A stretch of 34,721 bases of DNA from a virus: IMG/VR virus record IMGVR_UViG_3300010149_000065, positions 1 through 34,721 of that record. One strand, given 5' to 3'. The position numbers and the translations under genes were made by a program. A model generated the notes under the pieces. The model had not been told where the DNA came from. It worked only from the letters and a program-made list of their open reading frames with translations, and ran no database searches. Positions within the stretch are counted from its first letter, which is position 1. Each line of letters opens with the position of its first letter. Positions 21,615 to 27,554 of this stretch are shown here, one piece after another.

Positions 21615-23117
21615 ATGGCGATTAATATATTTGGATACGAAATAGCTAAAAGTCTTTCTAAGGGGAAAGAGAAAGAAGTTGTTTCGCCTATTCCTAAGGT
21701 AGATGATGAAGACGGTTTAAACGTCACTGTAGGTGGAGGATACTTTGGTCAATACGTAGATTTAAGCGAGTCGAGTGCTACTTCAGACCATGATCTTATA
21801 CGTAAGTACAGAGAAGTGGCTTTGCAACCAGAATGCGATTTAGCGATTGCAGACATCACTGATGCGGCCATTGCTTCTTCAGAAGATAAACCTCCTGTTA
21901 GTCTAAAGTTTACATCTTCTCATCCAGAGGAGGTTGAAAAAGAGATTGTAAAAGAATTTAAGAATGTACTGAAACTTTATAAGTTCAATCGCCGTGCCAA
22001 TGAATATTTTCGTAATTGGTATGTGGATGGAAAGTCGTATTTTAATGTGATCGTTGATAACGCCAATCCTCAAAAGGGCATAGTAGAAATACGACCAATT
22101 GAAGCTACACACATTAATAAAATACGCGAGGTCAAAACCGAAACAGATGAAAAAACCAAAGTTGAGTATGAAAAGGTTATTGACGAATATTATGTGTATT
22201 CGCCCGAAGCTGCAGGTCAAACTTCTGGAAATATCAATGGTGTAAAAATTGCAAATGACGCAATCATTCAAACGAATTCAGGTTTAAAAGATTCAGCAAA
22301 TCTAAGAACACTCGGTTATTTACATAAAGCATTAAAACTCGCCAATCAGCTTCGATACATGGAGGATTCGTTGGTTGTATACCGCGTATCCCGTGCGCCT
22401 GAACGAAGAATATTCTATATTGACGTAGGTAACTTACCTAAGGGTAAAGCCGAAGAGTACGTGCAACAAGTCGTATCAAGATATCGTAATAAGCTGGTTT
22501 ATGATGCCACTACGGGTAACATTACTGATGATAGACGACATATGTCAATGCTTGAAGATTTTTATCTTCCTCGCCGAGAAGGTGGTCGAGGAACAGAAAT
22601 TACGACTTTAAGCGGTGGAGAAAATCTTGGTCAAATTGAAGATGTGTTATTCTTTCAGAAAAAATTATATCGCGCGCTGAACGTTCCCGTTGCTCGATTA
22701 GAACAAGAAACACAATACACTACCGGTAAATCTAATGAAATTTCTAGAGATGAAGTTAAGTTCCAGAAGTTTATTGATCGACTAAGAAAAAGGTTCGCGC
22801 ATATGCTCTTAGACGCATTACGCATTCAGCTTATTCTTAAAGGTGTTATCGTAGAAAAAGACTGGGACGACATTGAAGAATCTATTAATATTGATTTTTT
22901 AGAAGATAACTATTTTGCTGAACTTAAAGAATTCGAAATTCTTAGAGAGCGATTAGAGATGGCTCAGATGTTAGAAGATCTTGTTGGCAAATACATCTCA
23001 GACGAGTATGTCAGAAAGACAATTCTTCGTCAATCGAGTGATGATATCGCTCGTTTAGATAAAGAAATCGCCGCTGAAAAGGAAGCCTCTGATGATGATG
23101 AGGATGAAGATTTTTAG
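21615..23117 (+). CDS. 20: Portal vertex protein gp20
   Basis: This 500-residue protein has family blocks throughout: 'LIRKYREVALQPECDLAIADITDAAI', 'YFRNWYVDGKSYFNVIVD', 'GYLHKALKLANQLRYMEDSLVVYRVSRAPERRIFYIDVGNLPK', 'YLPRREGGRGTEITTLSGG' and 'LYRALNVPVARLEQE'. T4 gp20 is 524 residues and forms the dodecameric ring that starts head assembly and carries the packaging motor. The C-terminus ends in an acidic run (DDDEDEDF). It is transcribed from its own late box just behind the gp19 hairpin. The ATG at 21615 gives the conserved start 'MAINIFGYEIAKSL'. Confidence 0.97.
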   Translation: MAINIFGYEIAKSLSKGKEKEVVSPIPKVDDEDGLNVTVGGGYFGQYVDLSESSATSDHDLIRKYREVALQPECDLAIADITDAAIASSEDKPPVSLKFTSSHPEEVEKEIVKEFKNVLKLYKFNRRANEYFRNWYVDGKSYFNVIVDNANPQKGIVEIRPIEATHINKIREVKTETDEKTKVEYEKVIDEYYVYSPEAAGQTSGNINGVKIANDAIIQTNSGLKDSANLRTLGYLHKALKLANQLRYMEDSLVVYRVSRAPERRIFYIDVGNLPKGKAEEYVQQVVSRYRNKLVYDATTGNITDDRRHMSMLEDFYLPRREGGRGTEITTLSGGENLGQIEDVLFFQKKLYRALNVPVARLEQETQYTTGKSNEISRDEVKFQKFIDRLRKRFAHMLLDALRIQLILKGVIVEKDWDDIEESINIDFLEDNYFAELKEFEILRERLEMAQMLEDLVGKYISDEYVRKTILRQSSDDIARLDKEIAAEKEASDDDEDEDF

Positions 23118-23163: not shown

Positions 23164-24078
23164 ATGAGAGAATTGTCGAATAATTTGTTTGCAGCAATTG
23201 TTAAAGGTGCAGATGAAGAAATAGCTTTTGATAGAGCTATTAAAGAAAAAATGGAAAAAGCTTTAGAAATTCATAAAGTTGGTTTAGCCTCATCTATTTT
23301 TAATGAGGTTCCTTCAACAAATAAAGAAGCAGGACAGTTGAAAAAAGATGGGTATGAAGTACACGAATCAACTGATCTTGAAGAAGCTAAAATACCAAGT
23401 TCTAATATATCTAAATTTTCAAGCCCGCAAGCAGCGAAGCGAGCAGCTTCGAAGCAGAAATATAAAACTCAAATATTTATGGGGGATGATGGAACATTTT
23501 GGGTTCCTTCAACAAATAAAGAAGCAGGACAGTTGAAAAAAGATGGGTATGAAGTATACGAATCAGCGGATCTTGAAGAAGCAAAAAATTGGTGGACAGT
23601 TACTATTACTAAGAAAGCTGGTAAACTCTTTAAAGGACAAACTGTTGATGTGAAAGCTACGAGCTTGAGCGATGCTATTAAGAAAGGTCTTAAGCAAATG
23701 AAAGCTAATCCAGCATTAGTCCCAAGTGATGCTGTAGATGCAGAGTTGGCAGAAAGCAAATTTACTGAAGATCTTGAAGAAGCAACTCTAAAGAAAGTTG
23801 AAGGAAGCCCTGCCAATATTGAAAAAGATTTTAAAGATCTTATTACAAATGCAAAAACCATTAAGGGTGTTACGGATGACGAATATATGAGATGGTATGC
23901 CAGTATGGACGAGAAAATCTATCTGAAATGGGACAAGATGGTTAAAGCTATTCCACAGTACAAGAAGGCATATAAGCTTGGTGTTGATGGTGCTTCTGGC
24001 GTATCACCGTTTCCTAAAGGAACTTTAGCATCAGCTATTTGGTCAAATGAAAAAGCCGCAGGCGAAATGGACTCATAA
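23164..24078 (+). CDS. Repeat-containing prohead core protein, possible gp21-processed polyprotein
   Basis: This 304-residue basic protein lies between portal and protease, the place of T4 gp67/gp68. Residues 1-48 resemble prohead core proteins ('FDRAIKEKMEKALEIHKVGLASSIFNE'). 'VPSTNKEAGQLKKDGYEV' occurs at 49-66 and 114-131, reflecting an in-frame DNA duplication. DLEE-Ala occurs at 71-75, 136-140 and 203-207; Leu-x-Glu before the cut is the known T4 gp21 consensus, so predicted pieces are 1-74, 75-139, 140-206 and 207-304. Piece 2 carries 'FMGDDGTFWVPSTNKEAG', piece 3 'WWTVTITKKAGKLFKGQTVDVKA', and piece 4 a helical 'DDEYMRWYASMDEKIYLKWDKMVKAIPQ'. Core location is inferred from position, N-terminus and cleavage sites; the polyprotein reading is my inference. 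Confidence 0.65.
   Translation: MRELSNNLFAAIVKGADEEIAFDRAIKEKMEKALEIHKVGLASSIFNEVPSTNKEAGQLKKDGYEVHESTDLEEAKIPSSNISKFSSPQAAKRAASKQKYKTQIFMGDDGTFWVPSTNKEAGQLKKDGYEVYESADLEEAKNWWTVTITKKAGKLFKGQTVDVKATSLSDAIKKGLKQMKANPALVPSDAVDAELAESKFTEDLEEATLKKVEGSPANIEKDFKDLITNAKTIKGVTDDEYMRWYASMDEKIYLKWDKMVKAIPQYKKAYKLGVDGASGVSPFPKGTLASAIWSNEKAAGEMDS
23307..23393 (+). repeat. 87-bp direct repeat, copy 1
   Basis: Nearly identical to 23502-23588 and 195 bp (65 codons) from it, so in frame. It encodes 'VPSTNKEAGQLKKDGYEV' followed by a DLEEAK site. Confidence 0.9.
23502..23588 (+). repeat. 87-bp direct repeat, copy 2
   Basis: Second copy. It differs from copy 1 at only a few bases near its 3' end (His to Tyr and Thr to Ala changes), implying a recent duplication or gene conversion. 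Confidence 0.9.
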
Positions 24079-24081
24079 AAC

Positions 24082-24273
24082 ATGAATAACAATACACCAA
24101 ATATATTATCGAACGTAATACTTAACGACCCTACCAAGGCCGCCGAATCTTTTAAGGCCGCTATTGGTGATAAGCTAAAAGACGCTTTGGACTTACGTAA
24201 AGTACGTTTAACATCAGAAATCTATAATAACAGCAAGAGTGCTGATAAAGTACACGAATCTAAAGAAGATTAA
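24082..24273 (+). CDS. Small prohead core protein (gp67/gp68-like)
   Basis: This 63-residue protein starts three bases after the previous stop. Its core 'SFKAAIGDKLKDALDLRKVRLTSEIYNN' matches the N-terminus of the preceding protein in the pattern F-x-x-A-I-x-x-K-x-x-x-A-L-x-x-x-K-V-x-L-x-S-x-I-x-N, so the two are related. Short helical proteins of this type between portal and protease are prohead core components (gp67, gp68) in T4-like phages. They help set the shape of the head and are degraded or trimmed by gp21. I cannot say which of the two T4 proteins it corresponds to. gp21 follows four bases later. Confidence 0.65.
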   Translation: MNNNTPNILSNVILNDPTKAAESFKAAIGDKLKDALDLRKVRLTSEIYNNSKSADKVHESKED

Positions 24274-24276
24274 CGA

Positions 24277-24921
24277 ATGAAATTAATAACGGAACATCTA
24301 GAATCGGTAGAATATATAACCGAAGCAAACGATAAAGGTGAAAAGAATGTTTTCATCGAAGGCGTTTTCATGCAAGCGGAACAGGAAAACCGCAATAAAA
24401 GAATTTACCCTAAAGACGTACTTACAGAAGCTACGAATAAGTACGTTAGGGAACAAGTTAAAACTGGAAGAGCTGTTGGTGAGTTGAATCACCCTGAAGG
24501 ACCAGCAATTAACTTAGATAAAGTTTCACACAGAATTACCGAACTTAATTGGAACGGTAATGACGTTGTTGGAAAGGCACTTATACTTGATACACCAATG
24601 GGCAAAATCGTGAAAGGTCTCGTTGAAGGTGGATGTAAGTTAGGTGTCTCTAGTCGTGGTATGGGTACTGTTGAGCAAAAGGCAGGCAAAACATTTGTTA
24701 AGAGCGATTTCGTTCTTTCGACTGTTGACATTGTTCAAGATCCTTCTGCTCCTTCCGCCTTCGTTGAAGGTATTATGGAAGGTGTTGAATGGGTGTGGGA
24801 AAATGGATTGCTAAAATCTCAACAAATTGAAGAATATGAGACTGAAATTAAAAAGGTTCCACTTGGACGCATTAGCGAATCCCAGGAGCGAATCTTCAAA
24901 GATTTCCTCTCCAAACTCTAA
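24277..24921 (+). CDS. 21: Prohead core protease gp21
   Basis: This 214-residue protein (T4: 212) is a serine protease of the herpesvirus-assemblin-like fold. 'VGELNHPEGPAINLDKVSHRI' contains the catalytic His (H72), and 'GGCKLGVSSRGMG' contains the catalytic Ser (S125 or S126). The N-terminal 'VFIEGVFMQAEQENRNKRIYP' and 'FVLSTVDIVQDPSAPSAFVEGIMEG' are further family blocks. In T4 it cuts scaffold, core proteins and the N-terminus of gp23 after (L/I)-x-Glu, clearing the head for DNA. Candidate substrate sites in this window are in the 304-aa core protein and gp23. The ATG at 24277 gives the family N-terminus 'MKLITEHLESVEYI'. Confidence 0.95.
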   Translation: MKLITEHLESVEYITEANDKGEKNVFIEGVFMQAEQENRNKRIYPKDVLTEATNKYVREQVKTGRAVGELNHPEGPAINLDKVSHRITELNWNGNDVVGKALILDTPMGKIVKGLVEGGCKLGVSSRGMGTVEQKAGKTFVKSDFVLSTVDIVQDPSAPSAFVEGIMEGVEWVWENGLLKSQQIEEYETEIKKVPLGRISESQERIFKDFLSKL

Positions 24922-24942: not shown

Positions 24943-26253
24943 ATGATTAATAACGAAAACGAAATAATCGAAGACGTTGAAGAAAAGGATCTTGTAGAGA
25001 ATCAGGAGCTTGAACAGGAATTTCCTGAAGAAGCTACTGAGGATCAATCAAGCCAACCTTTAACACAAGACGTATTAGACGTATTACTTGGTGAAACCAA
25101 GGAAGAAGAACAAGCTGAAGAAGAAGAAGACGAAATGTCCGAATCTGAAGAAGCTGAAGAAGAAGAAGAAGACGAAATGTCCGAATCTGAAGAAGAAGAT
25201 GATGAAGACGAAATGTCCGAATCTGAAGAAGACGAAATTGAACTTCCAGAAGTCGCTACTAAAGCAGGATACCTTGCAGCAAGTTTCGACGCTTTGAAAT
25301 CAATGAAGAAATCATCTATAGTTGCAGCATATAAGTCAATTAATATGGCTGAAGGCGAAGATGATGACATGCCTAAGAACAAGGCTGACATCATTAATGC
25401 CATGTATGGTCAACTTAAAGCGATGAAGAAAGATGACATTATGGCTTCATATAAAGCTATTAAAGATTCTTGCGGTGGAATGCACGAAGAAATCGAAACA
25501 GATGTGTATGCTGAAGATCTTAAAGTACTTACTGATTCTGAAAAAGAATTGACTGAGGGCTTTAAATCAAAGGTGGCTATCTTATTTGAAGGTGCAATCG
25601 CTAACCGTACTATTGAAATTAAAGAAGAGTTGGAAGCACAGTATCAAGATGATCTTCAAGAGGAAGTCACATACATTCGTGAGAATGTTGTAAATAAGAT
25701 TGATGATTATCTTTCTTATGTGGTTGAGTCTTGGATTCAAGAGAATCAGGAGTTTGTTGATAACAAGCTACGCACTGATATCGCAGAAAACTTCATGAAA
25801 TCACTACAGCAAGTGTTCACTGAGCACTATATTGAAGTGCCGGATTCTGAAGTTAATCTTGTTGATAATCTCTCAGATGATCTTAAAGCAACTACAGAAC
25901 AACTCGAAGAAATGCAAAACACGAACGAAAGTCTTAGTGAAGAACTTGAAAATCTTCATCGTCGTAACATTATCGAAGAGGCAGCTAAAGACTTAGCTAA
26001 CACTGAAAAGGTGAGATTTATGTCTCTTCTTGAAGAAGTTGAGTTTAACGATGCTAAATCATTTACTTCTAAGGTCGAAACGATTAAAGAAAACTTTGAC
26101 TTCTCTTCAACAACTGAAGTTATTCAGGAATCTGAGGAAACTCACGATTCAACTAACGTAAAAACAATCGTGGAAGGTGCGGGTGATCCTAATGCTAATT
26201 TGTCCTCAGACATGCAGCGTTATGTTAATACACTCTCACGCTTCAACAAATAA
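24943..26253 (+). CDS. 22: Prohead scaffold protein gp22
   Basis: This 436-residue protein (T4: 269) is longer because of an acidic N-terminal domain. Residues about 60-100 contain three 'EDEMSESEE' repeats in a run of Glu and Asp. A pair of 'LKxMKKxxIxAxYKxI' segments follows ('DALKSMKKSSIVAAYKSI' and 'GQLKAMKKDDIMASYKAI'). From about residue 185 the protein is the helical scaffold core typical of gp22 ('LFEGAIANRTIEIKEELEAQYQ', 'YVVESWIQENQEFVDNKLRTDIAENFMKSL') with a coiled coil at about 320-350. The C-terminus 'SSDMQRYVNTLSRF' is conserved and binds the shell in T4. The scaffold is removed by gp21. The position directly before gp23 is as in T4. Confidence 0.92.
   Translation: MINNENEIIEDVEEKDLVENQELEQEFPEEATEDQSSQPLTQDVLDVLLGETKEEEQAEEEEDEMSESEEAEEEEEDEMSESEEEDDEDEMSESEEDEIELPEVATKAGYLAASFDALKSMKKSSIVAAYKSINMAEGEDDDMPKNKADIINAMYGQLKAMKKDDIMASYKAIKDSCGGMHEEIETDVYAEDLKVLTDSEKELTEGFKSKVAILFEGAIANRTIEIKEELEAQYQDDLQEEVTYIRENVVNKIDDYLSYVVESWIQENQEFVDNKLRTDIAENFMKSLQQVFTEHYIEVPDSEVNLVDNLSDDLKATTEQLEEMQNTNESLSEELENLHRRNIIEEAAKDLANTEKVRFMSLLEEVEFNDAKSFTSKVETIKENFDFSSTTEVIQESEETHDSTNVKTIVEGAGDPNANLSSDMQRYVNTLSRFNK
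25129..25230 (+). repeat. Three 24-bp repeats encoding DEMSESEE in gp22
   Basis: Identical 24-base copies begin at 25129, 25171 and 25207, separated by Glu/Asp-rich spacers of 18 and 12 bases. The tract forms an acidic arm in front of the scaffold domain. Confidence 0.85.
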
Positions 26254-26285: not shown

Positions 26286-27554
26286 ATGTTAAACGCAGAA
26301 AAAGAACTACAAAAGTGGGCTCCAGTGCTTGATCACTCGGACGCTCCTGCTATCGACGATAGCTATAAGAAGGCTGTTACAGCCAAACTACTCGAAAACA
26401 CTGAAGTCGCTCTCCGCGAAGAAGCACAAGCTTCTAGCTTTGGTGTACTTAGTGAAGCAGATGCAAATCAAAGCACCGCAGCTCTTCAGAGTCCTGATCC
26501 AGTGCTTATTTCACTGATCCGTCGTGCAATGCCTAACCTCATCGCTTATGATGTTGCAGGTGTTCAACCTATGTCTGGTCCTACTGGTCTTATCTTCGCG
26601 ATGAAGGCTCGTTATGGTGATGGTAATCCAATCACATTAGATTCACCTCAACAAGATGAAGCACTCTTCAACGAAGCTGACACAGACTTCTCTGGCACTG
26701 GTGCACACGCAGAAGGATTATTTGATTCTCCTGAAGCTGGTATCACAACAGGAACTGGTATTGTTACTAACACTGCTGAAACTTCATCAAGCCTTAATGA
26801 AATGGGTTTCACTATCGAGAAGTCAACTGTTACAGCTAAGACACGTCAACTTAAAGCTGAGTACTCAATGGAGCTTGCTCAAGACCTTAAGGCTGTACAC
26901 GGCCTTGACGCTGAAAGCGAACTTGCTAACATCCTTTCCGGTGAAATTCTCGCAGAGATTAACCGTGAAGTTATCCGTTCTATCGTTACAACTGGTAAAA
27001 AAGGTGGCATCGGTTCAACTGAGGCATTTGACCTTGTAGCTGATGCAGACGGCCGTTGGGCAGTTGAGAAGTTCCAGAGCTTGATCTTCCAGATCGAGAG
27101 TGAAGCAAATACTATTGCTCTTCAAACTCGCCGTGGAAAAGGTAACTATGTTATCTGTTCAAGCAACGTTGCTTCTGCTCTAGCAGCTGCAGGCAAGATC
27201 ACCTTCGGTGGTGAAGGTATCAGTGTTGATGCTACTGGTAACACATTTGCTGGTCTACTTAATGGTAAGCTTAAGGTCTACATTGACCCTTACGCTACTA
27301 CTGACTACGCAACTGTTGGTTACAAAGGTACAAGCGCTTACGATGCTGGTATGTTCTACGCTCCTTACGTTCCTCTTACTATGGTACGTGCAGTTGGCGA
27401 GAATAGCTTCCAACCTAAGATTGCCTTCAAGACACGTTATGGTCTTATCGCCAACCCAATGACTGGTGCTGGTGATGGAATTGGTTCTGTTAACAGCAAC
27501 CCTTACTTCCGCACATTCCGCGTGAAGAACATCAACGTTGGTGGACAATCCTAG
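26286..27554 (+). CDS. 23: Major capsid protein gp23
   Basis: This 422-residue HK97-fold capsid protein of the short, marine T4-like type (T4: 521) has 'SPDPVLISLIRRAMPNLIAYDVAGVQPMSGPTGLIFAMKARY', the block used for gp23 typing. 'RQLKAEYSMELAQDLKAVHGLDAESELANIL', 'GKGNYVICSSNVASAL' and 'YVPLTMVRAVGENSFQPKIAFKTRYGL' are also typical. Residues 1-57 form the delta domain that gp21 should remove: 'GVLSEADAN' offers Leu-Ser-Glu before Ala58, matching the protease consensus. No gp24 vertex paralogue follows, as in other marine members. GC is somewhat above the window (43% over 27061-27120), consistent with codon bias in a very abundant protein. A strong terminator follows. Confidence 0.97.
   Translation: MLNAEKELQKWAPVLDHSDAPAIDDSYKKAVTAKLLENTEVALREEAQASSFGVLSEADANQSTAALQSPDPVLISLIRRAMPNLIAYDVAGVQPMSGPTGLIFAMKARYGDGNPITLDSPQQDEALFNEADTDFSGTGAHAEGLFDSPEAGITTGTGIVTNTAETSSSLNEMGFTIEKSTVTAKTRQLKAEYSMELAQDLKAVHGLDAESELANILSGEILAEINREVIRSIVTTGKKGGIGSTEAFDLVADADGRWAVEKFQSLIFQIESEANTIALQTRRGKGNYVICSSNVASALAAAGKITFGGEGISVDATGNTFAGLLNGKLKVYIDPYATTDYATVGYKGTSAYDAGMFYAPYVPLTMVRAVGENSFQPKIAFKTRYGLIANPMTGAGDGIGSVNSNPYFRTFRVKNINVGGQS

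Follow-up and report, generated by a model that had tools for sequence, protein, structure and literature searches.

A predicted gp67-carried chain of small cargo modules with gp21-type cut sites at its joints

Between the genes for the portal protein gp20 and the head protease gp21 we found a 304-aa ORF which is best read as a gp67-carried cargo chain that gp21 would cut into pieces, a reading to which we assign a probability of roughly 0.8. The ORF lies on a stretch of 34,721 nucleotides of a T4-like marine phage (the window), which comprises positions 1 to 34,721 of the IMG/VR virus record IMGVR_UViG_3300010149_000065. The basis of this reading is the gene position, a gp67-like start, an enrichment of protease sites, module edges marked by these sites, exchange of modules with the sites kept, and seams that are conserved as DNA. 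The features of the region are given below, with an arrow at each predicted cut.

21615..23117, + strand: portal protein gp20 (PHROG 213, E 1.7e-176)
23164..24078, +: putative cargo polyprotein, gp67-linked, 304 aa (P0001; ORF call and homologues)
23164..23307, +: residues 1-48, gp67-like prohead-core carrier domain (profile-profile match, gene slot)
23307..23392, +: 86-bp direct repeat, copy 1 (repeat comparison)
23308..23385, +: residues 49-74, remnant of the second half of module 75-139 (86-bp repeat; same relic in locus L003)
23374..23388, +: predicted cut site and seam 1, DLEE74↓A75, DNA GATCTTGAAGAAGC (motif and repeat)
23386..23580, +: module M6 (residues 75-139, KIPSSNIS type; recurrence in other ORFs)
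23502..23587, +: 86-bp direct repeat, copy 2, 95% identical (repeat comparison)
23569..23583, +: predicted cut site and seam 2, DLEE139↓A140 (motif and repeat)
23581..23754, +: module M1 (residues 140-197, WWTVTITKK type; recurrence in other ORFs)
23746..23757, +: predicted cut site LAE197↓S198 ([LI]xE[AGS] motif)
23770..23784, +: predicted cut site and seam 3, DLEE206↓A207 (motif)
23782..24075, +: module M27 (residues 207-304; sole cargo in loci L010-L012 and L014)
24082..24273, +: 63-aa plain gp67-like paralogue, no cargo or site (ORF and homology)
24277..24921, +: head protease gp21, presumed cutter (Pfam Peptidase_S77, E 1.7e-42; PHROG 207)
24943..26253, +: scaffold gp22, 5 predicted sites (homology and motif count)
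26286..27554, +: major capsid protein gp23 (homology), with a single site LSE57↓A at 26448-26459

Predicted cut sites and gp67-like start of the 304-aa protein

DLEEA motifs start at residues 71, 136 and 203 of the 304-aa protein, which places predicted cuts after residues 74, 139 and 206. These three sites, in a protein encoded between gp20 and gp21, had been named in the original prediction and were all recovered, but its count was one short, as LAE197↓S198 is a fourth candidate. Two or more DLEEA motifs occurred in 0 of 20,000 residue shuffles of the protein, and the three named sites are therefore real and not to be expected by chance; at least four [LI]xE[AGS] sites were reached in 0.8% of the shuffles. 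LEE[AS] was confined to this protein among the 32 window proteins scanned, and the count of [LI]xE[AGS] was five each in gp21 and gp22, one in gp23 and zero to two in the others. T4 gp21 and gp22 are both cleaved by gp21. The gp23 site LSE57↓A lies at what we take to be the expected maturation position, and this LxE was retained in relatives of gp23. The cognate S77 protease is encoded nearby, past the 63-aa ORF and hence two genes downstream as had been claimed, and its motif was found at the domain joints of the 304-aa protein. T4 gp21 cleaves after L/I-X-E, also in gp67 (PMC9026906). The N-terminal part of the window's gp22 (24943-26253) carried repeated acidic EEDEMSESEE tracts. No family was matched by the 304-aa protein in searches against Pfam and PHROGs.

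The gene order of the window is 20-ORF-63aa-21-22-23, compared with 20-67-68-21-22-23 in T4. Residues 1-48, together with the 63-aa ORF and their relatives, matched a profile of the gp67-position family over 46 columns (hhalign, E 2e-5, probability 77%), which had been built from the small proteins of T4, C48C1, S-RSM4, AG-345-P14 and Melnitz; T4 gp67 as a single sequence did not match the carrier profile significantly (probability 2%). Because of the profile match the best reading of the N-terminus, from its sequence, is a core protein of the gp67 type, with the 63-aa ORF a plain paralogue of it. The core-targeting N-terminus had originally been drawn as residues 1-74, of which 1-48 are gp67-like and 49-74 turned out to be a module relic. 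The 304-aa protein showed no acidic C-terminal tail of the gp67 type and carried mildly basic modules instead; nor did it have a short N-terminal signal of the internal protein (IP) type ending in (L/I)xE↓A, in place of which stands the 48-aa gp67-like carrier. The 63-aa paralogue (24082-24273) ends in a KVHES stretch that resembles the linker ahead of seam 1. In loci L082-L092 the gene in the neighbouring slot encoded an unrelated 95-aa small protein and not a gp67-like paralogue.

Modules and their exchange among related loci

The three large pieces of the chain had been described as domain-like. Residues 75-139 (M6), 140-197 (M1) and 207-304 (M27) recurred as modules in other proteins, M6 and M1 with varied neighbours. 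M6 occurred in 8 non-redundant ORFs, where it had 6 types of neighbour on the left and 7 on the right, with a DNA identity of up to 96% to the copies within other proteins. For M1, 19 non-redundant ORFs showed 12 types of neighbour on each side; M1 was not found in 12 further gp21-bearing records, which were mostly fragments. The pieces are indeed small but, with pI values of 8.2, 9.6 and 8.8, only mildly basic. An in-frame duplication of 87 bp had also been reported; the repeat is real, with a length of 86 bp and four mismatches between the copies. Full M6 copies elsewhere ruled out that this repeat is a whole module unit. Since residues 49-74 are the relic of half of module 75-139, the duplication comprises half a module plus the seam, and the idea that copying it would by itself add a module did not hold. 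A stand-alone 70-aa ORF related to module 75-139 was encoded in Pseudomonas phage ZQG1, a siphovirus (L031, 3977-4189), without a chain.

Structure models of the pieces had been suggested as a further check and were informative for M1, the sole part that was modelled fairly confidently (pLDDT about 76-87). AlphaFold mean pLDDT was 46.9 for the whole 304-aa protein and 35.6 for an 809-aa chain, low values which we attribute to module homologues that could not be aligned deeply. For M1 the models weakly suggest an independent domain with exposed linkers, features that are putative for the other parts of the chain. A PDB fold search gave no meaningful match.

A search of IMG/VR with the 304-aa protein returned 29 loci, most of which had only one module in common with it. 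Here modules 75-139 and 140-197 were embedded in very dissimilar ORFs, the longest with 746 aa, whose joints carried (L/I)xE↓A/S/G; the largest chain, of 809 aa, was a neighbouring one. In 26 non-redundant ORFs, chosen by homology and not by motif, we counted 132 [LI]xE[AGS] sites compared to 26.9 +/- 5.4 after residue shuffling, the highest count in 300 shuffles being 42. Of the ends of module-sized BLAST matches, which were defined without using the motif, 30% were no more than 3 aa away from a site, versus 9% of random positions, and the right-hand ends peaked sharply one residue past the cut. This enrichment is partial, with the majority of HSP ends away from sites, and indicates that sites preferentially mark module edges. 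Cutting the ORFs at their sites yielded 39 recurrent fragment families; the module families were mostly 50-150 aa long and common to different chains, and tandem module copies occurred.

One related locus (L003; portal 96% and gp21, over the part present, 99% identical to those of the window) retained the carrier and modules 140-206 and 207-304; in the place of module 75-139 it had some 180 aa of different sequence. Loci L010-L012 and L014 encoded 153-aa gp67 fusions consisting of the carrier and module 207-304 alone. In a second family of 13 loci (gp21 86-89%, portal 70-80% identical) the start and the last module were constant with zero to three changing modules in between, and L083 and L084 had the same two middle modules in opposite order. 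Comparison of homologues for sites and module number over a constant N-terminus had been part of the original prediction, and it came out in its favour: the sites were kept while the modules between them were replaced, deleted, duplicated and reordered, and the gp67-like N-terminus was retained. The homologues thus support the modular polyprotein reading, from which we infer cleavage and packaging.

With gp21 as the only query, a survey comprised 80 loci, of which 60 had both neighbours; the distinct intervals numbered 56. The gp67 gene was plain, acidic-tailed or fused to non-acidic cargo in this survey. After three rows that were not gp67 had been set aside by eye, [LIV]xE was found at the joint in all 16 gp67-cargo fusions, many of which are related and do not represent 16 independent events, versus 0 of 11 acidic-tailed gp67s. 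A, S or G stood at P1' within 45 aa in 13 of the 16; the other three read LKE↓V (L111), LDE↓K (L132) and LEE↓E (L139). Some joints therefore depart from the strictest motif, with V at P3 or with K, V or E at P1'. The cargos were of about eight unrelated kinds, one of which was Pfam DUF6321 (E 1e-25), beginning directly after AIDE↓A. In L130 and L135 a sulfatase-looking ORF of 469-476 aa was inserted between the portal and the gp67-like gene.

The seam, the proposed mechanism and its alternatives

In the mechanism that we propose, the 304-aa ORF would encode a precursor polyprotein whose residues 1-48 bring the chain into the assembling head, with 75-139, 140-197 and 207-304 as three separate small cargo proteins. 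Gp21, active in the prohead, would cut at LEE74↓A, LEE139↓A, LAE197↓S and LEE206↓A. The freed carrier would be expected to be degraded or lost in the manner of T4 gp67, while the cargo pieces would survive loose in the packaged head and then probably be injected with the DNA, as T4 IPI-III. The cargo set might be altered by in-frame exchange of modules at the seam, a presumed recombination route.

The repeated DLEEA could also be a mere recombination seam or flexible linker that was copied during module swapping, in an uncut, multidomain head-core or structural protein. What speaks for this is the DNA itself, as codon conservation at the seams was far above the expectation from codon use. LEE sites in chains were encoded by CTTGAAGAA at 95 of 103 sites, a count that leans partly on motif-fetched loci (many of 40), retrieved with a search pattern that hardly constrained the Leu codon and accepted both Glu codons. 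The Leu was CTT in 94% of these sites versus 37% elsewhere in the same ORFs, and CTTGAAGAA was present in 67 of 73 distinct seam contexts versus 10 of 35 non-motif LEE in other ORFs of the same loci. The 14-mer GATCTTGAAGAAGC, which occurred three times in the window (23374, 23569 and 23770), each time inside the 304-aa gene, was near-invariant at seams even where changes would be synonymous, which hints that the DNA is homogenised or acts as a seam for recombination. The source of the DNA-level conservation could be recombination rather than proteolysis. At the protein level, however, 172 of 275 sites had other cores (LGE, IEE, LKE, LDE, LTE and others) with the P3/P1 rule kept, and several of the non-LEE cores had varied codons. 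Seam-like sites defined by DNA encoded [LIV]xE in 166 of 183 cases, a set biased by its definition of which only the protein-level pattern is used here; the non-conforming ones lay mostly within modules. Changes at the seam fell mostly at P4, P2 and P1', were conservative at P3 and were rare at P1. Rare broken seams were DLEK in L072 (3137-3943) and DFQE in L065 (9989-11116). Furthermore, the gp67 fusions place a site ahead of unrelated cargo, and gp21 is encoded nearby with the motif matching its T4 specificity. We consider an uncut protein quite unlikely on these grounds, and the seam as a gp21 cut site is well supported as a pattern. It may in addition serve as microhomology for in-frame exchange, and because it is conserved both as DNA and as protein, a crossover at the seam keeps the frame and the cut site. 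Whether the seam (GATCTTGAAGAAGC, DLEE↓A) is both gp21 cut site and crossover point of a general cassette system in T4-like marine phages, in which any modules could be joined in frame and would always be cut apart, we regard as an even bet.

Two further explanations accept the chain and differ in the fate of the pieces. The modules might be sacrificial core filler, cut by gp21 and then entirely degraded and expelled, as most T4 gp67 and gp22 fragments are, without delivery. Most of the fragments into which T4 gp67 is cleaved are lost from the head (PMC9026906), and by this analogy the cargo might leave it too; the size and sequence of the inserts also vary freely. This explanation nevertheless appears unlikely, as the modules recur as families across chains, matches end at sites more often than random positions would, and DUF6321 and DUF192 are known domains among the cargos. 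In addition, S-SCSM1 gp029, a multidomain cyanophage homologue with a DUF6321-type module, is a virion protein according to its annotation; S-SCSM1 virions were analysed by mass spectrometry. Alternatively, the chain might stay joined and be injected as one long protein, as was described in other phages for chains of 2-15 domains injected with the DNA (PMC5512222). We hold this to be very improbable, since Pfam found no embedded peptidase or known large effector domain in the 304-aa protein or in 10 chains, and since the joints carry sites that match an external prohead protease.

Chains elsewhere and comparison with known systems

Large chains in T4-like contigs adjoined apparent ribonucleotide reductase genes, as read from sequence, and C48C1 has an annotated ribonucleotide reductase pair in a comparable region. 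C48C1, the best cultured match by gp21, has a gp67 that is plain and acidic, and its motif density pointed to no chain. The 105-kb record G001 contained gp21 (69% identical) plus a chain that ranked first in site enrichment among its 103 ORFs, ahead of gp22 and gp21 (Poisson p 1.4e-3 for the chain, a modest value that is uncorrected and from a single genome). Since G001 retains a plain gp67, cargo fusion is not universal, and for the large chains elsewhere a head-targeting signal is putative at best. ORFs beside chains start with MISFKTFIAE↓A, MKSFKKYIAE↓A and MINFKSYIAE↓A, compared with MKTYQEFIAE↓A in a T4 IP. An NMNAT-like gene that adjoins chains is of a type detected in cyanophage virions (PMC9602691, PMC3037559). 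NMNAT/cytidyltransferase-like ORFs with CTS-like starts MKSFKQFxE were seen in L004 (306-2249), L009 (2735-4582) and L020 (1164-2807), some of them with DLEE↓A modules at the C-terminus. A tblastn search of cultured phages with the 304-aa protein and the large chains retrieved nothing beyond a 55-aa M6-like domain of Pseudomonas and Stutzerimonas phages. In bacterial genomes the one match, a weak one in Paenibacillus (25% identity), was taken as chance.

If the proposed processing is true, a head protease dices a cargo chain in a tailed phage. The polyprotein strategy is familiar in RNA viruses; in the part of the literature that we covered we found no phage polyprotein cut by a prohead protease. 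Large hypothetical ORFs of T4-like marine phages would be explained, a sequence rule for capsid-delivered proteins would be at hand, and the cassette seam would let phages combinatorially reshuffle small injected proteins. The carrier with its cut site could then serve as a general head-loading tag. Each of T4 Ip1-3 blocks type IV restriction enzymes (PMC12373910), and by likeness to them the cargo may have a counter-defence role, so that the chains would be a place to seek new counter-defence factors.

Among cultured T4-like phages, S-SM2_109, S-SCSM1 gp029 and S-RSM4_123 share with the chains xxE↓A/S/G joints and modules of DUF6321, which alignment or Pfam placed in all three, or of DUF192, but they have no gp67 carrier, fewer sites and several V at P3. 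S-SM2_109 contained DUF192 (339-441) and DUF6321 (637-706) with sites after residues 329, 443, 493 and 556, and S-RSM4_123 had TELEE↓G ahead of DUF6321; we found no report on the processing of the three proteins in the literature. Large modular, chain-like hypothetical proteins with xxE↓A/S/G joints are encoded upstream of gp17 in S-SM2 (GU071095, 91801-93927) and S-SCSM1 (NC_070962, 42662-44215). Polyvalent proteins (Iyer et al. 2017) likewise have many domains per virion-carried polypeptide that are shuffled between elements, but many of them have peptidase and enzymatic domains of their own, whereas here small modules are combined with sites for the prohead protease. In phiKZ and SPN3US internal head proteins are protease-cut, possibly several times per precursor; in SPN3US the sites serve to take off N-terminal propeptides, or a C-terminal one in the protease itself, and multi-cargo chains were not reported (PMC10052503). 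T4 gp67 (PIP) has the same gene slot, a related 46-residue N-terminal region and belongs to the gp21 substrate class, as predicted here for the 304-aa protein, but has an acidic tail where the latter has cargo modules with cut sites. T4 IPI, IPII and IPIII are small proteins that enter the head by an N-terminal signal, which is removed after (L/I)xE, and near-identical starts were found beside other chains; they are encoded by separate genes with one cargo each, in contrast to several cargos on one carrier in one chain. Loading by such a chain is best read as a variant of T4-type internal protein loading.
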